NCBI GenBank assembly: GCA_020852815.1
Contig: JADZAN010000016.1
Location: 62,001-126,000 of the forward strand
Direction of reading: 5' to 3'
Source: Gemmatimonadaceae bacterium
Lineage (GTDB): Bacteria > Gemmatimonadota > Gemmatimonadetes > Gemmatimonadales > Gemmatimonadaceae
DNA length: 64,000 nucleotides
Shown one piece after another: positions 12,006 through 26,300 of the stretch. Under the pieces are notes generated by a model, which was not told where the DNA came from, did no database searches, and saw only the letters and a list, made by a program, of their open reading frames with translations. The first letter of the stretch is position 1, and every line of letters starts with the position of its first letter. Both the position numbers and the translations under genes were made by a program.

Positions 12006-12728
12006 TCAGAACGTCGAGACGTCGAGCGTCGTGAGGTCGTCGACGCGCATGGTCTCGGTCGTGTAGAACGGTTCGCCGTATCGCGTGCGAATGAGCGAGC
12101 CGTAATGCGCCGCCTGGTGCCGCACGATCTCGTACAGCGGCTCGCCGTTGGGGTACACCTCACCTGCCTGCACCGCGTCGTCGAACTGCGAGCCATAGCA
12201 GCGGATGGCGGCCAGCTTGTCGTCGAACGTCTCGGTGATGTCGACCACGAACGTCGGCTTGAGGTAGTCCTCGCGGTAGGTGATGCAGTGCACGACCTTG
12301 TGCGGGCGGAACGGGGCGAGGTCGTCCTCGAGCTTGCGCAGCCCGGCAACGAAGGTCGCGTCGCGGATCAGTTCAGCCGCAACGCGATGGTCGGGGTGGC
12401 GGCCAAAGGGGGCGGGGGCCGGCGCGATGACGATGCGTGGTTGCAACTGGCGGAGGGCACGCGCCACGAGGCGCCGTGTCTCCGGCGTGTTCGTGATCCC
12501 CGAATCGGGGAGCGCGAGCTGCTCGCGCGTGGCGACGCCGAGGATCGCGTTGGCCTCGGCCGCTTCCGCGGCGCGCAGCGCGGGCGTCCCCCGCGACCCC
12601 ATCTCACCGGCCGTGAGGTCGAGGATACCCGTGCGCCGCCCCGCGCGCGCCGCCTTGATCAGCGTCCCGCCGCAGGTGAGTTCCGCGTCGTCGGGATGAG
12701 CGACGATCGCCAGGAGGTCGAGTGGCAT
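12006..12728 (-). CDS. bshB1: BshB1-type deacetylase (bacillithiol biosynthesis / PIG-L family)
   Basis: This zinc enzyme of the PIG-L/LmbE family most resembles BshB1, which removes acetate from GlcNAc-malate on the way to bacillithiol, the low-molecular-weight thiol of several phyla. The 240-residue protein has AHPDDAELTCGG (zinc His and Asp), DLTAGEMGSRGT and FGRHPDHR, the three BshB1 motif blocks, and normal length. bshA and bshC are not in the window, so the pathway cannot be confirmed here. The start ATG 12728 is preceded by a 113-base gap with several inverted repeats. Confidence 0.85.
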   Translation of the reverse strand: MPLDLLAIVAHPDDAELTCGGTLIKAARAGRRTGILDLTAGEMGSRGTPALRAAEAAEANAILGVATREQLALPDSGITNTPETRRLVARALRQLQPRIVIAPAPAPFGRHPDHRVAAELIRDATFVAGLRKLEDDLAPFRPHKVVHCITYREDYLKPTFVVDITETFDDKLAAIRCYGSQFDDAVQAGEVYPNGEPLYEIVRHQAAHYGSLIRTRYGEPFYTTETMRVDDLTTLDVSTF

Positions 12729-12841
12729 GCGGGACAATTTACCCGCCGGTGAAGCCACTCGTGAGTCGTGCACGAGGGGAGCCTCCCCGGCGGGCGACTC
12801 ATGTCCTGGCGCTCGCTGGGGAAAGCGGCTCGCCGTCGCGT

Positions 12842-14086
12842 TCACTCGTAGCGCAGCGCTTCGACCGGGTCGAGCCTCGCCGCGCGCCGGGCGGGGATGA
12901 GGCCAAAGACGAGGCCAATGCCGATCGAGACGAGGACGGCGATCACGGTGATCCCGATCGGCGTGGGGGCGGCCGCGCCCACCATCATCGCCGCCACCCG
13001 CCCGACCACCAGGCCAAAGACGATTCCGATCAGCCCCCCGATTCCGGTGAGCGTCGCCGCCTCGAAGAGGAACTGGAGCATGATGTCGCGGCGCGTGGCG
13101 CCTAACGCCTTGCGCACGCCGATCTCGCGCGTGCGCGACGTGACGGAGACCATCATGATCGCCATCACCCCGATCCCCCCCACCAGGAGCCCAACCGAGG
13201 ACAGCGATACCATCACGAGGAAGAAGGCGCCGGTGAGTCGATTGAAGATCTGGAGGATCTGGTCCTGCGTGACGAAGTCGAAGTTGTTCTTGTCGGCCGG
13301 TCGCAGTCGCCGCATCTCGCGCAGGGCGACCATCACCGCCTCCTGCACCGCCGGCACCGAGACCGTCTCGCGCCCCTTCACCGCGATGAAGACGGCGTTC
13401 GACTTGTCCAGCGCGTACTGCTGGTCGGCCATGCGGAACGGGATGATGGCCGAGACCGAGACGCCCGGCGGCTGGAAGATGTTGTCCGCCGGGACGTAGA
13501 GCCCGATCACCTCGGCGGGACGCCCGCCCACGCGGATCACGTTCCCCAGCGGATTGCGCCGCCCGAACATGTCGCGCGCCAGGTCCTCCGGAATCACCGC
13601 CACGTTCGCTCCCGACGCCATCTCCTGCCGCGAGAACCAGCGCCCCAGCACCAGCTCCCCGCCAATGACGTCGGTGAAGTGGTCGTCGGCGCCGTAGATG
13701 CGGTTGGGTTGCGTGCGCACGTCGCCGAACTCGAGGCGCCCCTGCACGATGCCCCACATGCCGGCGTACTGCACCTCGGGAAGCTGGGCAATGCGATCCG
13801 CTTCCCGTAGTTGGAGGTCGGGACGAATCCGGATCCAGGCGGGGATCGCGTCCGGGTTCACCGGCATCTCGTTGTATGCCTTGAACACGTAGAAGATGCG
13901 TGGCCCGGCCTTCTCGATCGTCGAGACGATCTGCCCCTGGATGCCGTTGACGATCGTCGCCATCGACATCACCGAGCTCACGCCGATCACCACGCCGAGG
14001 ATCGTGAGCCCGGCGCGAAGCTTGGCGGCTCGCATCGCCTCGAGGGCGATGACCACATTCTCTTGCAGCTGGTCGAGGATGCGCAT
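12842..14086 (-). CDS. MacB/FtsX-type ABC permease, type A, second copy
   Basis: A 414-residue inner-membrane permease: one N-terminal transmembrane helix, a periplasmic MacB-type core domain (about residues 45-270), then three C-terminal helices and the tail ARLDPVEALRYE. The N-terminus, with VIALEAMRAAKLRAGLTILGV, is close to that of the permease at 15505-16776, and both end in VEALRYE; I call this subgroup A. It is the last gene of the tolC-led export operon and starts 4 bases after the stop of the upstream permease. MacB-like systems push peptides, lipids or antibiotics through TolC by a mechanical cycle. The substrate is unknown. Confidence 0.88.
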   Translation of the reverse strand: MRILDQLQENVVIALEAMRAAKLRAGLTILGVVIGVSSVMSMATIVNGIQGQIVSTIEKAGPRIFYVFKAYNEMPVNPDAIPAWIRIRPDLQLREADRIAQLPEVQYAGMWGIVQGRLEFGDVRTQPNRIYGADDHFTDVIGGELVLGRWFSRQEMASGANVAVIPEDLARDMFGRRNPLGNVIRVGGRPAEVIGLYVPADNIFQPPGVSVSAIIPFRMADQQYALDKSNAVFIAVKGRETVSVPAVQEAVMVALREMRRLRPADKNNFDFVTQDQILQIFNRLTGAFFLVMVSLSSVGLLVGGIGVMAIMMVSVTSRTREIGVRKALGATRRDIMLQFLFEAATLTGIGGLIGIVFGLVVGRVAAMMVGAAAPTPIGITVIAVLVSIGIGLVFGLIPARRAARLDPVEALRYE

Positions 14087-14090
14087 TCGG

Positions 14091-15332
14091 CTACTCGGCG
14101 CGCAGCGCGGCAATCGGGTCCAGGCGCGCCGCGCGGCGCGCCGGATAGACGCCGAACAGGATTCCCACCCCCGTCCCCAGCGCCAGCGACAGCACCACCG
14201 ACCACGCCGTCACGCGCGCCGGCAGCGGAGACGCCGCCGCAATGAGCGCCGCGAACGCCGCTCCCGACCCCACGCCGATCACCCCGCCAAATGTCGCAAG
14301 GACGATCGCCTCCCACAGGAACTGCCGCTCGATGTCGCGTGCGCGCGCCCCAACCGCCTTGCGTATCCCGATCTCATGTGTCCGTTCGCTCACCGCCATC
14401 AGCATGATGTTCATGATGACGATCCCCCCCACCACGATCCCGATCGACACCATCGCTGGGATAATCGCGAAGAGGAGACGCGTCAGCGTCTTCCAGAAGG
14501 CAACGAGCGCGTCTGACGTCTCGATCGAGAAGTCGTTCTCGTCGCTTGGGCGCAGGCCGCGCGCCACGCGCATCGCCTCTTCGGCGCGCGCCATGGCCGG
14601 TGCGACCTCGTCCGCCTTCTCCATCTTGACGCTGACCACCGTCGTGGTGCGACGCCCGTACAGCATCTCGAAGCGCGTGGTCGGCATGAGGACGTAGGTG
14701 TCGAACGACTGTCCCAGCACGCGCCCCTTGCCGGCGTTGACGCCGACAATCTCGAACTGCTCACCCATCACGCGGACCGTGCGCCCCACCGCGCTCACCC
14801 CCGGAAAGAGCGCCTCCGCCACGTCGTGCCCCACGACGATCACCGCGCGGCGCTGCGCCACGTCGAGGTCGGAGAGCGAGCGCCCCGCCTCGACGCGGTA
14901 GTCCTGCACCAGTTGGAACTGCTCGGTCACGCCAAACAGGATGACGTCGGCAATGCGCTGGTTGCGCCAGACGAGGTCGGCGCGCGGCGTTGGCCACCCC
15001 GACTGGAACGAGACGGCCTGCGCCTCGGGAATCGCCGCCTTGACCGCATCGGCGTCGCGCGGTGTGATCTTGGGGCGCCGGTTGATGCGCGAGATCTCGT
15101 CGTCGCTGATGCGACCGACGTTGATGGGTGTGCGGCGCACCTGGAAAGTGTTCGCCCCGATCATCGCGTCGGCGATGTTCTCCTTCACGAAGGCATTCAT
15201 CCCCTGGATGATCGCCGTGACTGCCACGAGGAAGGCAACGGAGACGATGATGCCGAGCAGCGTGAAGAACGATCGCAGCTTGTTGGCGCGGATCTGTGCG
15301 AGCGCCATCGCGAGCACGTCGGCGAACAGCAT
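14091..15332 (-). CDS. MacB/FtsX-type ABC permease, type B, second copy
   Basis: A 413-residue permease with the same four-helix, periplasmic-domain layout. Its N-terminus (MALAQIRANKLRSFFTLLGI) and tail (ARLDPIAALRAE) match the permease at 16773-18011 and differ from the A type; I call this subgroup B. The chosen start ATG 15332 gives the same N-terminal pattern as its paralogue; longer frames upstream only read through satellite repeats. It is separated from the upstream permease by a 172-base gap holding hairpins and a GACGAGA satellite, the only large gap inside the operon. Confidence 0.87.
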   Translation of the reverse strand: MLFADVLAMALAQIRANKLRSFFTLLGIIVSVAFLVAVTAIIQGMNAFVKENIADAMIGANTFQVRRTPINVGRISDDEISRINRRPKITPRDADAVKAAIPEAQAVSFQSGWPTPRADLVWRNQRIADVILFGVTEQFQLVQDYRVEAGRSLSDLDVAQRRAVIVVGHDVAEALFPGVSAVGRTVRVMGEQFEIVGVNAGKGRVLGQSFDTYVLMPTTRFEMLYGRRTTTVVSVKMEKADEVAPAMARAEEAMRVARGLRPSDENDFSIETSDALVAFWKTLTRLLFAIIPAMVSIGIVVGGIVIMNIMLMAVSERTHEIGIRKAVGARARDIERQFLWEAIVLATFGGVIGVGSGAAFAALIAAASPLPARVTAWSVVLSLALGTGVGILFGVYPARRAARLDPIAALRAE

Positions 15333-15349
15333 CCCGGATCTTGCGAGAA

Positions 15350-15433
15350 GACGAGAGGACGAGAGGACGAGAAGACGAGAAGCATGCCCCAGCGAAGGCT
15401 GGGGACGAGGAGCTGCCCCGGCGAAGGCTGGGG
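15350..15433. repeat. GACGAGA satellite plus two CCCCAGC/GCTGGGG hairpins
   Basis: The gap between two permease genes holds five units of a GACGAGA/GACGAGG satellite (about 15350-15382) followed by CCCCAGCGAAGGCTGGGG (15387-15404) and CCCCGGCGAAGGCTGGGG (15416-15433), each able to form a short stem with a GAAG-type loop. Read on the minus strand, hairpin then CTCGTC satellite repeats the arrangement seen near 1408-1449. They may weaken or attenuate transcription into the second permease pair. Confidence 0.7.
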
Positions 15434-15504
15434 ACAGGGGGGGTCTCTGGTGAATCAATTGGGGGGAGATGCTTCGCCGCAAGCGGGGCTCACCCGGGGG
15501 CTGC

Positions 15505-16776
15505 CTACTCGTAGCGCAGCGCTTCGACCGGATCGAGGTTCGCGGCGCGCGCCGCCGGTGCCATCCCGAACAGGATACCGGTGAAGGCGCTGGCCACCAG
15601 CGAGGCGACGATGGCAGGGAGGGGGACGGTGGCGGGAATCGAGGTCCATGACCGGATCCCGATGGCCAGCAGCCCGCCGGCGATGAGACCCACGCCGGCG
15701 CCGATGCTGGTGAGCGTCGCACCCTCCACGAGGAACTGCCACAGGATCGTGCGCCGTGTGGCGCCGAGCGCCTTGCGCACCCCGATTTCTCGCGTGCGCT
15801 CGGTGACGGAGATCATCATGATCGCCACCACGCCAACGCCGCCCACCAGCAGCCCCACGGCCGAGAGGACGAGCATGACCAGGAAGAGCGCGCCGAAGAT
15901 CTTGTTGAAGGTATCGGCGATCTTGTCCTGACCCACGAGGAAGAAGTTGTTCTGTTGCGACGGACGCAGCCCGCGCATGGCGCGCATCGTCGCCGTGACC
16001 TCGTCCATCGCTTCGCCGCGCGTGAAACCGGCGCGCGGCTTCACGTTCACCATCATCCCGCGCATCCACACGTTGAGGCGGCGGCGCGCCGTTTCGGCGG
16101 GGGTGATGATCTTGGGCGTCTCGGGACCGCGCCCGTCCAGCGACTTGAGGAAGCCGGCGCGCGTCTGGTAGATGCCAATGACGGAGAACTGCTGTCCGTC
16201 GACCATGACCTGCTTGCCGATGGGGTCCGACTGGCCGAACAGCTTCTTGGCGAGCGTGTCGTTGAGGATCGCGACGGGGGCCGCGTTGGATGCTTCCTTC
16301 TCGGTGTAGTTGCGCCCCGGATAGATGTCGCCGCCGTCTGTCGTGAGCCACTCGGCGCCGTACGCCTCGAGGTTCACCGACTCGAACGACGTGTCCATGT
16401 AGCGAATGGAGGCGTTGCCGAAGAGCCATGGCGACGCGGCACCAACCGAGGGGAGCGCGTTGATGGCGCGCCATTCCTCCATGGTGATGGACGGATAGCG
16501 CCACTCGGGACAGTTCTCCTCCGTTCCGTCGCAGGCGTTGATCCCGACGTCGTTGCGGCGCACCATGAAGGCGTCGCCGCCAAAGGCGTCGAGGTCCGAC
16601 TGGAACGAGAGCGTGACGCCGTGGATGGTCGCCGCCATGGCGACGACGACGAAGACGCCGACGGCGACGCCAAGGATGGTGAGCGCGGCGCGCACCTTGT
16701 TGGCGCGAATGGCGTCCAGCGCGATGGCGACGCCTTCCAGCGTGGCCTGCAGCGAGGCGGCAAACGACGACTTCAT
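15505..16776 (-). CDS. MacB/FtsX-type ABC permease, type A, first copy
   Basis: A 423-residue permease of subgroup A: N-terminus with VAIALDAIRANKVRAALTILGV, a periplasmic domain with a pair of cysteines (near residues 81 and 88, in NACDGTEENCPEW) that could form a disulfide, and a C-terminal three-helix block ending VEALRYE. The ERTREIGVRKALGATRR coupling segment that contacts the ATPase is complete. The start ATG 16776 overlaps the stop of the upstream type B permease (ATGA), so A and B are made together, as expected for a heterodimer, but pairing is inference. Confidence 0.88.
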   Translation of the reverse strand: MKSSFAASLQATLEGVAIALDAIRANKVRAALTILGVAVGVFVVVAMAATIHGVTLSFQSDLDAFGGDAFMVRRNDVGINACDGTEENCPEWRYPSITMEEWRAINALPSVGAASPWLFGNASIRYMDTSFESVNLEAYGAEWLTTDGGDIYPGRNYTEKEASNAAPVAILNDTLAKKLFGQSDPIGKQVMVDGQQFSVIGIYQTRAGFLKSLDGRGPETPKIITPAETARRRLNVWMRGMMVNVKPRAGFTRGEAMDEVTATMRAMRGLRPSQQNNFFLVGQDKIADTFNKIFGALFLVMLVLSAVGLLVGGVGVVAIMMISVTERTREIGVRKALGATRRTILWQFLVEGATLTSIGAGVGLIAGGLLAIGIRSWTSIPATVPLPAIVASLVASAFTGILFGMAPAARAANLDPVEALRYE

Positions 16777-18011
16777 TCCTGGCGCAGGGCAGCGATGGGG
16801 TCGAGCCGCGCGGCGCGGCTGGCGGGGTAGATCCCCGCGACGATCCCGACGCCGGCGCCGAGGACGACGGCGGCGGGGATGGACCAGTAGGCGACGCCGG
16901 CGGGGAGCGGCGACACGGCGGCGATGAGCTTGGCGATGGCGATGCCTAACGCGATCCCGATGGCTGCGCCCAGCACGCTCAACGACGCCGCTTCCACCAG
17001 GAACTGCCGCATGATGTCGCGCCGCCGGGCGCCTAACGCCTTGCGGATCCCGATCTCGCGCGTGCGCTCGGCCACCGCCACCAGCATGATGTTCATGATC
17101 ACCAGCGCGCCGACGATGAGCCCAATGGCGGGCAGCGCGGTACCGAAGGCAATCAGCTTCCCCTTGAGCTCATTGAAGAACTGCATCGCCGTGGCCGACG
17201 ACTCGACGGTGAAGTTGTCCTTCTGCCCCGGCCCCAGGTGGCGAATGCCGCGCATCAGGGCGCGCACTTCCTCCATGGCCTCGTTGAGGATGACCGGGTT
17301 GGGCGACTGCACCACGAAGGCGCGCACGTCGCCGCGCGGATTGGTGACGCGCGCCAGCGACGAGGTGTACGGGGCAATCGCGAGGCGATCGAGCGAGAAG
17401 CCGAACACCGATCCCTGCGGCTCGATGACGCCGATCACCTGAAAGCTCGTCCCGCCCATGCGCAGTTCGCGCCCGAGCGGGTCGAGGCCGGGGAAGAAGT
17501 GCGTCGCCGCCTCCGAGCCGATCACGACCACCTTGCTCCCCAGCGTCACTTCCTGCGCCGTGAAGGCGCGGCCGGAGGAGAGCTTGTACTTCTTCAGCGT
17601 GAAGTACGTCTCCTCGGCGGTGACCGTTTGCACCTGCTTGGGGCGCGCGAACGGCGACGACGCGTAGGCAAACGTCATGTTCTCGATCGACGAGAGCATG
17701 CTGGCGGGAAGGACGGCGCGCACCTCGTCCACTTCGGACTTGTAGAGGCGCGGCCGGCGCTGCATCTCGCGCCACTCCGCCTCGGAGTGATCGCCAAACT
17801 CGCCGCCGGCGCGCCGCAGCGTGAACGTGTTCACTCCAAGCAGCGCGCCGGCAAAGTCCTCCTGCACATAGCGGCTCATCCCCTCCACGATGCTGACGAC
17901 GGCGATGAGGAACATGACGCCGATCATCACCCCGAGCAGGGTGAAGAAGCTCTTCAGCTTCTGGACGCGAATCTGGGCAAAGGCGAGCCGGACTGCCTCG
18001 AGAAACGGCAC
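16773..18011 (-). CDS. MacB/FtsX-type ABC permease, type B, first copy
   Basis: A 412-residue permease of subgroup B. I chose GTG 18011 because it gives the N-terminus VPFLEAVRLAFAQIRVQK, which lines up with the other type B permease, and avoids overlap with the ATPase gene that ends at 18034; an earlier ATG at 18086 would lie inside that gene. The periplasmic domain and the segment ERTREIGIRKALGARRRD are intact, ending ARLDPIAALRQE. Spacing from the ATPase stop is 22 bases. Two CGTTAGG words fall in its C-terminal part and carry TTA codons. Confidence 0.88.
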   Translation of the reverse strand: MPFLEAVRLAFAQIRVQKLKSFFTLLGVMIGVMFLIAVVSIVEGMSRYVQEDFAGALLGVNTFTLRRAGGEFGDHSEAEWREMQRRPRLYKSEVDEVRAVLPASMLSSIENMTFAYASSPFARPKQVQTVTAEETYFTLKKYKLSSGRAFTAQEVTLGSKVVVIGSEAATHFFPGLDPLGRELRMGGTSFQVIGVIEPQGSVFGFSLDRLAIAPYTSSLARVTNPRGDVRAFVVQSPNPVILNEAMEEVRALMRGIRHLGPGQKDNFTVESSATAMQFFNELKGKLIAFGTALPAIGLIVGALVIMNIMLVAVAERTREIGIRKALGARRRDIMRQFLVEAASLSVLGAAIGIALGIAIAKLIAAVSPLPAGVAYWSIPAAVVLGAGVGIVAGIYPASRAARLDPIAALRQE

Positions 18012-18033: not shown

Positions 18034-18858
18034 CTACTGGATGCCCATCGACTGCTTGAACGCCGAGCGACGATCGTCGCTGGCAATCACGCCGTCGCGC
18101 AGCACCACCACGCGACGCGCATGCGCCGCGATGTCCGGCTCGTGCGTGACCATGATGACGGTCTGCCCCGAGTCGGCGAGGCTTTCGAAGACGCGCATGA
18201 TCTCCTCCGACGTGGCCGAGTCGAGGTTACCGGTCGGTTCGTCGGCCAGGAGGATGGACGGGTTGTTGACCAGGGCGCGCGCAATGGCGACGCGCTGGCG
18301 CTGGCCGCCGGAGAGTTCGTTGGGGCGGTGGTGCATGCGCGTCTCGAGTTGCACCTGCTCCAGCGCCTTCTTCGCCCGCCGCTTGCGCTCGTCGGACGAG
18401 ATGCCGGCGTAGACGAGCGGCAACTCGACGTTGTGCAGCGCCGTGGCGCGCGGGAGGAGGTTGAACGTCTGGAAGACGAAGCCGATCTCCTTGTTGCGCA
18501 CGCGGGCCAGCTCGTCGTCGCTCATCTTCGAGACCATCATCCCGTTGAGCCAGTACTCGCCGGCGGTGGGAGTGTCGAGGCAACCGATGAGGTTCATCAG
18601 CGTCGACTTGCCCGAACCCGACGGGCCCATGATGGCCACGTACTCGTTGCGCCGGATCGCGAGGTCGACGCCGCGGAGGGCGCGGACCACCTCGCCCCCC
18701 ATGTCGTACTCGCGCTTGAGCCCGCGCGTCACGATGACCCAGTCCTTGCCCGGCGTCTCGCCGGGCGACATGACGACCGCCTGCCGTTCCGCCGTCGAGC
18801 TGAGAGGGTGCTCGCCCGTGGTGCTCAGTCGCCCGTCGCCGCCGTGGATGTCGCTCAC
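18034..18858 (-). CDS. MacB/LolD-type ABC ATPase of the export operon
   Basis: A 274-residue cytoplasmic ATPase of the MacB/LolD/FtsE branch: Walker [11 protein letters not shown]-loop VFQTFNLLP, signature [15 protein letters not shown], Walker [13 protein letters not shown] and switch VTHEPD. About 40 extra residues precede the core domain. Start is GTG 18858, overlapping the adaptor gene stop by GTGA. It is the only ATPase in an operon with four permeases, so it probably serves both permease pairs. Confidence 0.93.
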
Positions 18859-20138
18859 GTCTTCGCTCCCGTCTCGGTCTTCTTGTCCTTGTCGGGCTTG
18901 GGCTCCTTGACCAAGGCCCCATCCTTCAACTCGCGAATGGCCTGGTAGGTGCCACCCACGATCTTCTCGCCGTCCTTCACGCCGGTGACGACCTCGAAGT
19001 ACTTGTCGCCGGCAATCCCGACCTTAACGGGGCGGAAGGTGACTTTGTTGTCGGTCCCGACGATGAACACGCCCTCGGCGTCCTTCTTCCCCACTTCCTT
19101 CTTCTTCGCCTGTCCGGGGGCGCCCGCGGTGTCGGCGCTCAGCTCCTCGTTCTCGCGCACCGTGAGGGCGATGATCGGGATGGTGAGGACCTGTGTCCGC
19201 GTATCAGTCACGATCTTGGCGGTGGCCGAGAAGTCCGGGCGCGTCTCGGCGGGCGGGTTCACCAGGCGGATCTTCACCTCGTAGTCGATTGCCTGCTCCG
19301 TGCTGCTGGAGGCGGCGGCGGTCGCCTTGACCGAGCTGTTGGAGATCTCGACCACCTTGCCGACGAAGGTCGTGTCGGGGAAGGCGTCGATCTGGATGAC
19401 GGCGGAGTCGCCGAGCGAGATGCGCGCGACGTCGGTCTCGTCGACCTTCACCTTCGTCTCGAAGACCGAGAGGTCGGCGATGGTGAGGAGCGTGGCCGCA
19501 TCCTTGTTGAACGTTCCCGGGACGGCGGTCTCGCCCTGCTCGACGGCGAGCCGGGTGATCTTCCCCGTCATCGGGGCGAGGATCGTGGTGCGCGCCAGGT
19601 TGCTGCGCGCCTCGCGGAGCGACGCGGCCGACTGGTCGGCGTTCTGGTTGGCCGACTCCAGGAGCGCGGTGTTCACTTCCACCGCCGTCTTGAGCTGCTC
19701 CAGCGACTCGTCGGAGATGAGCGCCGCGTTGGTCTTCTTGATCTCCATCGAGCGGTCGTAATTGCGCTCGGCCTGGAGGAGGTTGGCCTTGGCCTGTGCG
19801 GCCGAAGCCTTGGCCGACGCCACCGCGGCCTCGGCGCGCTGCACCGCGGCCTGGTATTGCGCCGGGTCGATCTCGAGGAGGAACTGCCCCTTCTTCACGA
19901 CCTCGCCTTCCTTGACCGCCAGGCGCACGATGCGTCCGGAGATGTCGGCGGCGACGTCGACCTTGGTCACCGGTTGCACCTGGCCGCTAGCGGTCACCGA
20001 GGCCACGAGGTCGCGCTTCTGCACGGTTTCCATGCGGACTTCGGTCGCCTTGTCGCCGCTCCTGGCCTTGGCGGCAAGCGCACCGCCCACGGCCGCGACG
20101 ACCACGATCCCCAGTCCCCACTTCATGCCTTTGCTCAT
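18855..20138 (-). CDS. Periplasmic adaptor (membrane fusion) protein, MacA/HlyD family
   Basis: This 427-residue protein links the inner-membrane permeases to the TolC channel. It has an N-terminal membrane anchor (about residues 7-23), a lipoyl-like half ([21 protein letters not shown]), a long alpha-helical hairpin rich in Ala, Glu and Gln (about residues 95-185), the second lipoyl half ([16 protein letters not shown]), and a beta-barrel/membrane-proximal region. A lysine-rich insert near residues 335-355 and a Lys/Asp-rich tail are unusual but compatible. It starts 15 bases after tolC with an AGGA-type site upstream. Confidence 0.92.
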
Positions 20139-20153
20139 TGCACTCGTCCTCGG

Positions 20154-21635
20154 TTAGCGAAGCGCCCGGCCCACCGCGGACTCGAGCGCGGCGAAAGCCT
20201 TGTGATAGTCGTAGATCGCATTGATGCGATCGGTCTCGGCGCGCTCGTAGTCACTGCGCGCCTGGGTCACGTCCACGAAGGTGTTGGCTCCCACGCGAAA
20301 GCGCTCCTGCGCCAGCGCCAGCGCCTCGCGCGCGGCCACGGTGTTCTGTTCCTGCAGGCGGACGGTCTGGTACGCGGTGACCAGGTTGCGATGCGCCGAA
20401 GTCACGTCGGCGGTGAGCTTGAGCTCCTGGTCGCGCACGCGGTAACGCGCGTCGTTGCGGCTGGCGGCCGCTTCCTGGATCCGCTGCTCGCGCGTGAAGC
20501 CGTCGAAGATTGGCAGCGAGAGCTGCGCCGAGAGCTGCAACGGCGAGCGCGTCATCTTGAACGGGAACTGCGCGTTCGCGTCGCGCATGGCCGCGGCCAT
20601 CGCGTCGGTAAAGACGATCGCGCCGCATTGCTGGAGAATGCTCGGCAGCCCGGCGCCGCGGCGCAGCGAATCCTGCGAAAGGCAGGACTTCTGCTGGGCG
20701 AGGGCGCTGGCCCGCGAGTCGTTGATGCTCCCGTCGATGTTGCGCAGTTGCTGCGAGAAACCGCTCACGCCCGAGCTGAGCGCGAGCGACGGGAAGTACG
20801 CCGAGCGCGCGCTCGACACCTGGATGTCACTCGCCCGCTCGCGCGAGCGCAGCGCCTGCAGCGCCGGGTTCCCGCTGCGCGCCTGCCCCAGCAGCGCCTG
20901 CAGCTCGAGCTTGGGCTCCTCGACCGTGAACTGCGAGGTGAGCGTCACCCCCGCCGGCTGCTCCACGCCGATCTGCTGGAACAACCGGAGCTTCTCCACC
21001 TCCACCGCATTGCGCTCGCGCAGCACCGCCACCTGCTGCTGCCCCACCTGCACCTCGGCGCGCCGCACGTCGAGCGAAGTGGCCGCCCCCACCTGCTGCC
21101 GCGCGCGGGCCAGCTCCAGCTGCGCCTGCGTGGACCGAAGCAGCGTGTCCTGGAACGCCGCGCGCGCCTGCGCCTGCAGCACGCTCAGGTACTGCGTCAT
21201 CACGTTGCTGCGCAGCGTCGCCTCGGCGCTCGACATCTCCGACTCCGCCGCCGACAGGTTGGCGGCTTGCTGCTTGCGCGCCAACCACGTGGCCGCGCTG
21301 ATCGCCAGGTCGACCCCGATGTCGGCGCTCGAGGAGAGGACGTCCGAGGTGGAACCGAAGGCCTGACCGGCGAAGAACTGCTGGCGCCCTTCGCGGTAGC
21401 TCGAGCCGAACGACGTACGCACCGACGGAAGGAGCTGCCCCCTGGCCGCTCGCAGCGCCGCGGCTGCGCGCTGCCGGTTGGAACCCGTCTGCAGGTAGGT
21501 GGGGTTGTTGCGGACTGCCAGACGGATCGCTTCGTCGAGCGTAAGCACAGGACCGCTCGCCTGAGGCGCCTGGGCCACCGCCTGGGACAGGGGCGCCGCG
21601 CCAAGGAAGAGCAGGGTGCAGATCAATCGTCGCAT
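20154..21635 (-). CDS. TolC family outer-membrane efflux protein
   Basis: A 493-residue outer-membrane channel subunit. It starts with a signal peptide (cleavage probably after AVAQA, near residue 22), followed by LTLDEAIRLAVRNNP, the TolC family opening, and two long coiled-coil repeats typical of the trimeric alpha-barrel. A loop containing three cysteines (near residues 313-340) is an oddity. First gene of the export operon with the adaptor, ATPase and four permeases in the same direction. Confidence 0.92.
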   Translation of the reverse strand: MRRLICTLLFLGAAPLSQAVAQAPQASGPVLTLDEAIRLAVRNNPTYLQTGSNRQRAAAALRAARGQLLPSVRTSFGSSYREGRQQFFAGQAFGSTSDVLSSSADIGVDLAISAATWLARKQQAANLSAAESEMSSAEATLRSNVMTQYLSVLQAQARAAFQDTLLRSTQAQLELARARQQVGAATSLDVRRAEVQVGQQQVAVLRERNAVEVEKLRLFQQIGVEQPAGVTLTSQFTVEEPKLELQALLGQARSGNPALQALRSRERASDIQVSSARSAYFPSLALSSGVSGFSQQLRNIDGSINDSRASALAQQKSCLSQDSLRRGAGLPSILQQCGAIVFTDAMAAAMRDANAQFPFKMTRSPLQLSAQLSLPIFDGFTREQRIQEAAASRNDARYRVRDQELKLTADVTSAHRNLVTAYQTVRLQEQNTVAAREALALAQERFRVGANTFVDVTQARSDYERAETDRINAIYDYHKAFAALESAVGRALR

Positions 21636-21805: not shown

Positions 21806-22558
21806 CTACGGCGCGGGCGGGTCGTCGCGCAGGGCGACGAGGTTGCGCGACGGGATCGCGACCTTGAGCACGCGCCCCTTGGCGTCGACCCAGAGTTCGC
21901 GCGCGTCGCCGCTTGGCTCGGTCAGCGTGATGTGGCGCGCGTCGACGTCCTTGGTCCCGATCGTCACCCGGTCGGAGCCCGCGTTCGAGATCTTGAGCAC
22001 GAGTTGCACGTTGCGGCGCGGGACGACGATGGCCACGCTGGTCGCGTTGCTCCGGCGCGCCACGAAGAAGTACTGGTGGAAGACGTCGTCGTCGAGAATC
22101 AGGGCGCCGTCGGTGACGATGTACTCCTTGGCCGACTCGCCGCGCGCGTTGTTGATGCGCGCACTCACCCGCCCGCGCGTGATTTTCCCGCTCCAGCGTT
22201 CCGAGCCGGCGGTGCTCCCCCGGCTCTCCACCTGATAGTCGGATGGGGCACCCAGCGAGTCGGAGTGCAGGGCGGGGGTCAACCGCCGGTCGCCGAAGAC
22301 GACCGTGGCGCGCGCCACGTACTCGAGCGCTCCGCTTGCCCCGGGTGTCCCCTCGATCCGGAAGTCCTCACGCCCCGTGCGCATGTTCCCCACGGTGATC
22401 GTGAAGCTCCCCTGGTCGATGATCTGGGCGCTCTGCGCGGACGAGTTCGACGGAGCAAGGAGCGCCGCCGACGCAACGAGGAGCGCCGCCGGGGTGAACG
22501 GAACGGCGCCGGCCGGCACGAGACGCAGGGCGCGAAGCCCGAAGTGTCGAATGATCAT
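21806..22558 (-). CDS. Secreted protein of unknown function
   Basis: I do not recognise the family. The 250-residue protein starts at ATG 22558 with a long basic-hydrophobic signal peptide (cleavage near NSSAQSAQ, about residues 40-43). The mature part is beta-rich with no cysteine or clear active-site motif; repeated phrases such as GSFTITVGN, LILDDDVFHQYFFVARR and GRVLKVAIPSRNLVALRD suggest a periplasmic beta-sheet protein. The last block resembles the end of secreted proteins that bind or carry lipid-like groups, but this is weak. It is encoded between creatininase and the tolC operon with its own possible terminator. Confidence 0.75.
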   Translation of the reverse strand: MIIRHFGLRALRLVPAGAVPFTPAALLVASAALLAPSNSSAQSAQIIDQGSFTITVGNMRTGREDFRIEGTPGASGALEYVARATVVFGDRRLTPALHSDSLGAPSDYQVESRGSTAGSERWSGKITRGRVSARINNARGESAKEYIVTDGALILDDDVFHQYFFVARRSNATSVAIVVPRRNVQLVLKISNAGSDRVTIGTKDVDARHITLTEPSGDARELWVDAKGRVLKVAIPSRNLVALRDDPPAP

Positions 22559-22618
22559 GGCAGTAAGATAGTACCCCGTCCCTGCAGACCCGTTCATCCC
22601 ATTCGGTCGTCACCCGCT

Positions 22619-23365
22619 TCAGTCGTCGGCGCTCGGCGGGGCGAGGAGGATCCGGTCGCGGATGCGGGAGTAGATGCGGGCGTAGATCGCCTTTCCGGTC
22701 TCGGCGCTTGCCAGCGATGGGCGCCCGATGGAGCCGGCGCTCCCCCGCGGGACCCTGAGTGACTGGCGCCGGTATCGCCCAAGCGCCTCAGGGGTGATCA
22801 TATAGTCCTGCGCCAATTCCATCTTCACCAGCGCGGGGGCCAGGTACAGCAGGAGCGAGGTATCGACCTCGTCGCCGTGCAACGGCCCCACCCCGCTCAC
22901 CGTCAGGTCGGAGAGATTGATCGCGAGGATGTCGACCACCCGCACCCGCGCCCCCTTGGTGATGACCGTCGACAGCGCTTCCTGATGTCCCTCGTGCCCG
23001 TGGGCGGTCAGGAAGACGAACTCGCGAACGCCCCCGGCCTCCCAGGCGTCGGTGAGGTCGTTGAGCGCGCGCAGGAGTGTCTTGCGCCGGAGCGTGGCGT
23101 TGCCGGGTACGACGCGCTCATGATCGGAGTTGACCCCGTACTCGACCGTTGGCGCGCGCAGCAGTCGCAACTCCGCCGAGAGATCGTCGGCGAGCCGGTC
23201 GACGATGATCGTATCGACCCCCATCGGCAGGTGAGGACCGTGCTGCTCGCATGTCCCGACCGGGATCAGGAGACGGGGATCACGCCCGAGCACCTCCGCC
23301 ACTTCGTCCGGGCGGAGTTCCTTGAGGCGAAGCGGATGGGAATACCCTGTTGGATCGGGGAGCAT
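22619..23365 (-). CDS. Creatininase-family amidohydrolase
   Basis: Members of this metal-dependent family hydrolyse small cyclic or formyl amides (creatinine, FAPy in riboflavin biosynthesis, mycofactocin precursor). The 248-residue protein has the metal site PVGTCEQHGPHLPMGVDT, NSDHERVVPGNATL, FLTAHGHEGH and GDEVDTSL, so the core looks complete. The true substrate is not deducible. Its start ATG (23365-23363) shares two bases with the ATG of the divergent sensor kinase gene, so there is no space for separate promoters between the coding regions. Confidence 0.88.
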   Translation of the reverse strand: MLPDPTGYSHPLRLKELRPDEVAEVLGRDPRLLIPVGTCEQHGPHLPMGVDTIIVDRLADDLSAELRLLRAPTVEYGVNSDHERVVPGNATLRRKTLLRALNDLTDAWEAGGVREFVFLTAHGHEGHQEALSTVITKGARVRVVDILAINLSDLTVSGVGPLHGDEVDTSLLLYLAPALVKMELAQDYMITPEALGRYRRQSLRVPRGSAGSIGRPSLASAETGKAIYARIYSRIRDRILLAPPSADD

Positions 23366-26300
23366 GTCGTCGGCATCGGGTGAACGCGCCTCGAGCGCGT
23401 CCGCGGCACTCCGGGATCGCGTGACGAACCTGGCGTGGCTGGCGAGCACGGCGGGCGCCATCGCGCTCGGCGGGTGGTGGCTGCGCTCGTGGGGCGAACC
23501 TTATCTCATCGCCACGTCGGGAGCCATCGCCGTCTCCCTGTTCCTGGTCGTGGTGGCGCGCGGCGGGCGCCGACTCCCCATGGTGACGGCGGTTGCGGCG
23601 CTGGCCTGGTTCGCGGCCCAGGGGTGGCTCGCTCGCCGCGACTTCCACCGGCTCGACACCGATTGGGCGGGATACGAGGGCGAGCGGGCCGAGCGCGCGG
23701 AGGCCGCTTTTGGCTCGGCGGTCGCGACCGACCTCGAGACGTTGGCGGCGGCGGCGGCGCGCGCGCTGGACATTCCGTCCGATGTGTCGGCGCGCTTTGG
23801 CCGTCTCGAGGACGAGCTGCCGTCGCGCGCGTTGGGGGAGACGTCGGCGGTGGTGTTCGAGGGTGAGCTCGAACTCGCCTGGATGGGGCCCGTGCGCATC
23901 GCGGTCGATTCGCTCACCGCCCCCACCGGCGTGGCGTGGAGCGAGTTCTACACGGTCGCCTATGCCACGGCATCGCGCGGCGCGCGACGCGCCGTGATGA
24001 TGCGCGTCCTGGCCGCGGCGCCGCCGGCTGACCGCCTGGCGCCGAGCATGGCCGGGATCCTGTCGGTGCGCGAGGAAGTGGGCGCGCTGACGTTGTTGCG
24101 CGCGTCGGGGGAGGGCTTTCACCAGGTGGCGGCCGGCGCGCTCTCCTCGCTCTGGGTCAAGGCCGAGCTGCTGGGGGTGGGACCGGCCCGCCTGCGCGTG
24201 GAGGAGCGCACGCGGTTGCAGGGGGCAATGGCGATCGCCGTGGCGCTGCTGGCCCTCCTGGCGGTGGCGTGGCGGCGTCCCGCGCCGGCGTGGCGCCGCT
24301 TCGCCACGTTAGGCGTGGCACTCGCCCTGGTGTGGCGGCTCCCGCTGTCGTCGCTCTCGAACAGCATTCCCGCCTTCGATCCATCGTTCTTCTACTCGGC
24401 CAGCGGCGGGGCATTTACCGCCAGCGTGGGGGCATTGGCGCTGGCGGGGGCCATCGCCGTCCTCGCGGTCTTCGCCGTACGGCGGCTGCGGGGCGGGAGA
24501 TTGTCGCGCTGGCTCGCGCCGCTGGTGGTGATGGCAATCGCCTCGTTAGGTCCCTTCCTCCTGCGGGACCTGGCGCGCGGGATCACCCCGCCGTCGCGCG
24601 GGATTCCCGTGACGCTCTGGGTGGCATGGGAGGTGGCGCTCTTCCTCGTCGCCACGGCATTGCTGCTGGCGATGGTCCGCGCCGGGCGACTCGTCCTCGG
24701 CGCCACGCGTGGCGTCTCGCCCGTCGTTGCCCCGGCGCTGGCCGCGGCGGCGGCGGTCGCGGCCCCCGTCTTGTGGAGCGCCCCCGGGCGGTGGCCCGGA
24801 TGGTATCCCGCGGTGTGGATCGTGTCGCTGGCCGCGCTGGCACTGGCACGGCGCACGCGCGGCTACTTCCTCTACGCCTCGTTTGTCGCCGCCTGCGGCG
24901 CCGCCACCCTCGTGTGGGGCTCGGTGTCACGCGAACGCGTGCGGCTGGCGGAGCGCGACATGCGCGGGTTGACCGTGGCCGACTCGGAAACGGAGCGACT
25001 GCTCATGCGGCTCGCCCAGTCGCTGCAGCAGACGCCACCGCCGCGCACGCGCGTCGACCTCCTGCGCCTCTACATCGCCTCGGACCTCGCGGCCTCCGGC
25101 AATCCGATGGAGCTGGCCACGTGGCGCGCCGGATTGGAGCTCCCCGATGCCGAGCTTGTGGTGGCGGACTTCGAGCGGCGTGCGGAGGGGGAGCGCGACG
25201 CCGTCGCCGAGGCGGCTTCCAGCGGCCGCGCCGTCGTTCGCGGCATGTCGTCGGGGCAGGGCGTGCAGCTGGTGCTGGCGGCCCCGGTGGACTCCGAGCA
25301 TGTGGTCACGGTCGTCGTCTCGCCGCGCACGCGCCTCATTGCCGACGATCCCTTCGCCTCGCTGCTCGGCCTCGATGCCCCCAACATCGTCGAACCGCCG
25401 TATCGCCTGGCGGTGGCCTCGCTCGCCATCGATGCGCAACTGGACGAGTCGCCGCAGTGGGTGCGGCTGGGCGATGAGTTGCACGGGGACTGGCGCGTGG
25501 GCGGGGCGCGCGGCTTCGTGCGCGCCCACGTGGAGGTGGAACTGCGATCGCTCGATGCGCTGGTGCAGCGCGGCGCACTCCTCGTGCTGGTCGACCTGCT
25601 GGTCGTGATTGCCCTGTGGACGCTGGCCGCTGCGGCTGACGGCGCCCTGTGGCGGTGGGCGCGCATTCGGCTGCGTCGGTGGCATGCGTCGTATCGCACG
25701 CGCCTGACGGCCGCGGTCTTCGTGGCCTTCATCCTCCCGGCCGCGGCCTTTGCCATCTGGACATACCGTCGGCTGCAAGACGAGGATCAGCTCTCGCGCG
25801 AGCTCCTGGTGCGCGAGACGCTGCGCGCCGTGGCCGCCACCAGCGACCTGGGGCGGTTGTCGCAGGAGGGTGACCGGCTCGACACGCCGCTCTTCCTGTA
25901 CAACGGCGGCCGCCTCACGAGGTCGAGCGACGAGCTGTACGACGCGCTGGTGCCGCTGGGGCGCTACCTGGACCCGGTGGCGGCGCAGGGCGTGGCGTTA
26001 GGCGACGAGGTGGCGGCCAGCCGCCGCATCACCGTGGGCGGGATCACCACGCTCGTGGGGTATCGCGTGCTGATGGATACGCGCGCCGAGCGGATCATCC
26101 TCGCCGCGCCGGCGCGGCGGAGCGAGCAGACGCTCGAGCGACAGCACAGCGATCTTGGCGTCCTCGTCGCCTTTGCCACGGCCTTGGGGGCGCTGGCCGC
26201 GCTCTGGCTCAGCGGGGTGGTGGCCCGCGGCTTCGCCGCGCCCATCGGGGCGTTGCGTGACGCCGCGATCGACGTGGCGGAGGGGCGCGTCGCGCTCCCC

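Follow-up and report, generated by a model that had tools for sequence, protein, structure and literature searches.

One ATPase and several permease pairs in a probable MacB-type exporter of the Gemmatimonadaceae

The window analysed here, a stretch of 64,000 nucleotides from a Gemmatimonadaceae bacterium (assembly GCA_020852815.1, contig JADZAN010000016.1, positions 62,001 to 126,000), carries an operon that probably encodes a tripartite exporter of the MacB type (type VII), in which a common engine would work with several heterodimeric permease modules. We put the probability of this reading at roughly 0.6. The operon contains four permeases of two classes, in the order B1, A1, B2, A2, and upstream of them lie one ATPase, one adaptor and one TolC. 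Comparison of sequences supports the reading through a separate, single-copy ATPase, class-matched permease pairs, a variable number of pairs, pairs dispersed in the genome and re-pairing in the ATPase lineage. The ATPase is a protein apart from the permease, which would in each case consist of B and A as a heterodimer. The common engine would be made up of a TolC, an adaptor and an ATPase dimer, and on it B-A pairs, borne by the operon or encoded at a distance, would dock singly via similar cytosolic coupling loops, some of them in trans and each to the exclusion of the others. The divergent periplasmic domains of the pairs would meet different substrates. A preliminary description of the window had placed four permeases after one ATPase in the order B, A, B, A, with motifs shared within each class, an ATGA overlap between B1 and A1 and a 4 bp gap between B2 and A2, and was correct on each of these points, coordinates included.

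All four permeases are intact and score above both Pfam cut-offs, with 115–128 bits for MacB_PCD (cut-off 27) and 66–89 bits for FtsX (cut-off 25.5). A MacB_PCD periplasmic core is followed by FtsX in a four-helix layout, as in the MacB/type VII family. The A1 model comprises one long helix before the periplasmic domain and three after it, and matches MacB (5gko) with a Foldseek E-value of 1.3e-24; in fold and sequence the nearest proteins are MacB and 5xu1_M. A and B are genuine classes, since identity is about 40% within a class (39–40% for A1-A2, 40% for B1-B2) versus 31–34% between A and B. They are also set apart in a tree of 609 sequences, with 4 mislabelled tips. In total, 55 MacB_PCD matches were found in the genome. 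Among solved chains, the ATPase is nearest to 5xu1_A, an ATPase of Streptococcus pneumoniae (E 6.5e-83), and the next paralogue in the same genome is 56% identical.

The ATPase is accompanied by a variable set of permeases. Across 179 genomes of the family, with the 14 best candidates scored per genome, an orthologue of the ATPase (E <= 1e-105) was found in 155, as a single copy in each. Permeases of the B1/B3 type, B3 being part of a third pair described below, are present in 165 of the genomes, one to four apiece, and those of the B2 type in 134, three of which (G026, G034 and G111) have two copies. Among 105 good genomes (completeness of 90% or more, contamination of 5% or less), the total number of B-type permeases is one in 9, two in 37, three in 45, four in 13 and five in 1, and the ATPase is present in 104. 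At the level of genes this is the pattern of a shared ATPase: a single-copy ATPase with several permease pairs per genome. For the count of operons, each distinct ATPase sequence was represented by a single locus (119 in all), and 11 of these, where under 1.3 kb remained past the last permease, were dropped. The remaining 108 loci show the patterns BABABABA (3), BABABA (40), BABA (39), BA (12), a single B (5) and others (9, including three with no permease called). Pairs stand directly behind the ATPase in the 94 loci of the first four patterns, and the pair number, for which a comparison among relatives had been proposed, does vary, from one to four behind one ATPase.

The named loci of the genome collection come mostly from Gemmatimonadaceae and other Gemmatimonadales, which are soil and water bacteria. 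In a sample of the phylum, the ATPase (E <= 1e-90) was found in 362 of 395 genomes. Among 20 loci from the wider phylum, six that come from outside Gemmatimonadales (L272, L275, L277, L278, L282, L284) share this operon organisation but carry a single pair each; in two of the six no TolC was called. A Terriglobia locus (L121) has two tandem pairs behind one ATPase. Because the tree puts its copies close together, the layout with several tandem pairs probably arose independently more than once.

Pairs also occur away from the ATPase. A third pair of the genome from which the window derives, B3-A3, lies on contig C24 (L001:6573-9071), with no adaptor or TolC alongside and the nearest ABC (ATP-binding cassette) ATPase domain about 27 kb off. 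B3 is 52% identical to B1 and A3 50% identical to A1, whereas B1 and A1 are only about 40% identical to B2 and A2. B3-A3 stands alone in G000, G001, G081, G156 and G157, as does B1-A1 in G157. B2-A2 stands alone at eight loci (L059, L160, L177, L182, L184, L190, L207, L208), with this ATPase not found within up to 20 kb. Seven of these eight genomes have an ATPase operon elsewhere with pairs of the other types (L221-L227); in the eighth (G117), which is 79% complete, no ATPase orthologue was found. The operon of Bacterium HR33 (L092) comprises an adaptor and two pairs and no ATPase, and in genome G189 the sole close ATPase is located in a different operon, beside a single permease (L273).

Two further arrangements were observed. 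Contig C2 of the same genome as the window carries a TolC, an adaptor and a single MacB-type permease, and no ATPase (L002:5949-10601); this permease is a possible further client of a shared ATPase. L118 and similar Acidobacteria loci harbor an adaptor and a B-A pair with no adjoining ATPase gene.

The B-A pair behaves as a unit. In the 609-sequence tree, A and B each split alike into type 2 (123 tips for A2, 119 for B2) and types 1/3 (158 for A, 152 for B). Adjacent B-to-A genes are type-matched in 270 of 270 cases, 151 being of type 1/3, 119 of type 2 and none mixed, a count that excludes one A-A neighbour and 27 consecutive pairs of which neither member falls in any of the four clades. When types 1 and 3 are told apart the match is less clean, with 65 B1-A1, 47 B3-A3 and 9 B3-A1, together with 11 in which B1 or B3 adjoins an A that could not be assigned to either type and 19 in which neither gene could be, in a region where the A tree has low support. 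With wider sampling, types 1/3 take in the single pairs found in other orders (supports of 0.976 and 0.979 in the two trees) and type 2 is sister to this group. The split between pairs 1 and 2 appears ancient, because these single pairs sit above it in both trees; either it predates the order Gemmatimonadales, or an early gain brought in pair 2 as a whole. A long-branch effect on the placement of pair 2 is possible, though the A and B trees agree. The four genes had been described as a tandem duplication of a two-gene pair, and a phylogeny had been proposed in which the two A proteins, and likewise the two B proteins, might be sisters. The pair does hold as the unit of duplication, given the matched neighbours and mirrored trees, but pairs 1 and 2 are not the closest duplicates. 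We reject a recent tandem duplication in view of the greater closeness of B1-A1 to B3-A3 than to B2-A2, and of the depth of the split in the trees.

The same description had one ATPase serving two distinct heterodimers. That a single ATPase accompanies several distinct pairs is borne out; that it serves both pairs of the window is what we infer. The operon ATPase might instead drive one pair only, the others using other ATPases of the genome or none, which we consider unlikely. MacB/LolD-type ATPases are indeed encoded several times in the genome, with up to 56% identity to that of the operon, and permease and adaptor loci without an ATPase exist (L002 and, in Acidobacteria, L118 for example). 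An ATPase restricted to one pair sits poorly with the 94 of 108 loci in which pairs lie directly behind it, and with the cytosolic coupling loop. This loop, which is expected to contact the ATPase, ranks with the regions of highest similarity between pairs, and the periplasmic core has the lowest; the class consensus of the loop is near-identical in pairs 1 and 3 (0.96–1.0) and close in pair 2 (0.78–0.81). The argument from the loop is weakened by control permeases, as in four further MacB-type permeases encoded by this genome the loop has 0.52–0.81 identity. This family-wide conservation undercuts loop identity as proof of a shared ATPase, and we give the similarity little weight because other MacB-type permeases share the loop.

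A partner swap in a sister family is more telling than the loop. There, a second ATPase is found in an operon of ATPase, adaptor and single permease, the permease being about 33% identical to those of the window. The single permeases of these operons cluster with their counterparts from other families in one clade (0.995). Four of the five second ATPases (L267, L271, L273, L276) are sister to the operon ATPases of the same family (L266, L270) with a support of 0.999, in a tree with weak rooting, and the fifth (L268) groups elsewhere. It would seem that the ATPase gene of the sister family duplicated and that one copy came to lie next to another, single permease, where it took the place of the earlier operon ATPase.

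Co-variation was calculated over 30 three-pair genomes, with distances corrected for ATPase and adaptor. It is 0.87 for A1-B1 and 0.57 for A3-B3, compared to 0.12–0.40 for non-cognate combinations, values that linkage and joint transfer could inflate. For A2-B2 it is 0.26, within the non-cognate range. Since A2 co-varies no less with B3 (0.39) than with B2, one might suppose that any A dimerises with any B to give combinatorial permeases. We find this improbable in view of the 270 adjacent genes, none of which mixes type 2 with types 1/3, and of the strong cognate co-variation of pairs 1 and 3. An assembly of all four permeases in one larger complex, such as two ABC dimers under one adaptor-channel stack, would suit the shared operon with its conserved order and pair 2 last, but is very improbable given operons with pair 2 alone (L043, L044, L142) or one other pair alone (L217, L218) and the pairs dispersed elsewhere, from which it follows that no fixed stoichiometry between pairs is needed.

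Besides the low A2-B2 value and the loops of the control permeases, several observations weigh against a common engine with interchangeable pairs. The genome has 71 ABC_tran matches, and other ATPases could serve the pairs in trans. A few operons depart from the B-A pattern, and in three another gene interrupts the pairs. The spacer between A1 and B2 contains two hairpin repeats (15387-15404 and 15416-15433; CCCCAGC-CTTC-GCTGGGG) that could uncouple the expression of pair 1 from that of pair 2. This repeat has 152 matches genome-wide at up to one mismatch, versus 0 for the reversed control, and its copies often lie in close pairs, resembling repetitive extragenic palindromic (REP) elements.

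By eye, genes resembling a substrate-binding lipoprotein and a sensor kinase lie between pairs 1 and 2 of an otherwise permease-only array at L053:4588-8505 and L060:5138-9081, and a reading frame resembling a TonB-dependent receptor lies between pairs at L054:5321-7390.

Among known systems, VarACDEF of Vibrio cholerae, reported as a macrolide pump, is tripartite: its ATPase is a separate protein, its two permeases are MacB-like with four helices each, and an adaptor and an outer membrane channel complete it (PMC5595328). The window has such a gene set in one cluster, with TolC as the channel, and, compared by layout only, each of its units of two permeases is alike; VarACDEF is described there with one pair, whereas the window system has several per ATPase. 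MacAB-TolC has the permease fold, adaptor and channel in common with it, but MacB is described as homodimeric with a fused ATPase (PMC5985334). LolCDE resembles it in combining a heterodimeric MacB-fold permease with a separate ATPase and differs, as described, in working without adaptor or TolC (PMC5985334, PMC8277102). HP1486-HP1489 of Helicobacter pylori is likewise tripartite with two permease proteins; its description gives one pair only and no ATPase in the operon, with the orphan ATPase HP0853 as a suspected, not established, partner (PMC9570263).

Family models set several assignments aside. MacB proper (E. coli type) is rejected, as the ATPase is a separate gene and the permeases score 151–175 bits against the NCBIfam MacB model (cut-off 966). 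ADOP duplicated permeases are likewise rejected (103–144 bits, cut-off 622.3). Lipoprotein sorting by Lol is set aside because the scores for LolCE (33–59 bits, cut-off 362.45) and LolD (234.7, cut-off 307.75) fall below cut-off, and because a separate LolC/E-like permease (357.7 bits, just under cut-off) and LolD-like ATPase (277.3 bits, under cut-off) are encoded at one locus elsewhere in the genome.

MsmK is reportedly one ATPase for several transporters, and the Mce permease type is unrelated to the MacB type. MceG has been reported as one ATPase common to two transporters, Mce1 and Mce4, which is the kind of sharing proposed here; Mce is a lipid importer and the window system a probable exporter (PMC9947336). 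Searches of open-licence papers turned up no MacB-type exporter in which the number of pairs per ATPase varies. The parts are already known; what would be new, judging from the genes, is the modular layout. Tandem MacB-type permeases probably occur in Bacteroidota too.

Table 1. Features of the exporter operon and its neighbours, in window coordinates.
Feature	Position	Strand	Remarks
Creatininase/MftE-like amidohydrolase	22619..23461	-	Pfam Creatininase 157 bits; upstream neighbour, conserved in relatives
DUF6134-like exported protein	21806..22597	-	Pfam DUF6134 26.9 bits (cut-off 27.9, just missed); LolA/RseB/VioE-like half-barrel; conserved operon partner
TolC-family outer membrane channel	20154..21635	-	Pfam OEP 179 bits, two stretches; beside adaptor in relatives too
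Periplasmic adaptor (MacA/HlyD type)	18855..20138	-	MacA model 147.7 bits (cut-off 342); RND_mfp 145.7 bits (cut-off 94.9)
Stand-alone ABC ATPase	18034..18858	-	ABC_tran 122.8 bits; no other close copy in genome
Permease B1 (pair 1)	16773..18011	-	GTG start; MacB_PCD 128, FtsX 88.9 bits; B1/B3 clade
Permease A1 (pair 1)	15505..16776	-	ATGA overlap with B1; MacB_PCD 114.9, FtsX 66.5 bits; predicted fold matches MacB and 5xu1_M
Spacer between pairs	15333..15504	.	172 bp; two hairpin repeats
Permease B2 (pair 2)	14091..15332	-	MacB_PCD 123.1, FtsX 78.1 bits; B2 clade, 119 tips
Permease A2 (pair 2)	12842..14086	-	4 bp past B2; MacB_PCD 116.5, FtsX 70.2 bits; A2 clade, 123 tips, support 1.0
BshB1 deacetylase	12006..12746	-	Bounds are those of the stretch scanned, start codon provisional; TIGR04001 230.6 bits (cut-off 182.5); downstream neighbour, conserved

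The order on the minus strand is creatininase-like, DUF6134-like, TolC, adaptor, ABC ATPase, B1, A1, B2, A2 and bshB1, the adaptor and ATPase genes overlapping by 4 bp. No relative of A2 was found in viral contigs. The DUF6134-like protein was modelled with a pLDDT (predicted local distance difference test) score of 86, and its structural matches are PA1994/DUF1089 (Z 15.9), DUF1849 (15.2), VioE (10.6), RseB (9.7) and LolA (9.1). Several such half-barrel proteins bind lipids or lipoproteins, so the model suggests, as a lead only, that the cargo of the exporter is perhaps lipid-like or amphiphilic; the fold by itself shows no function.

A broader proposition, which we hold at even odds, is a modular platform in which a TolC-adaptor-ATPase engine, conserved in most of the phylum, would work with one to five interchangeable heterodimeric MacB-type modules, some encoded far off. 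If true, it would be the exporter counterpart of importers that share an ATPase. With a shared ATPase, the range of substrates could widen by duplication of a permease pair alone, and deletion of one gene would expose the cargo of every module. The natural operons with one to four pairs, together with the genomes with dispersed pairs, offer a test series for how a MacB-type permease selects its ATPase and its partner.

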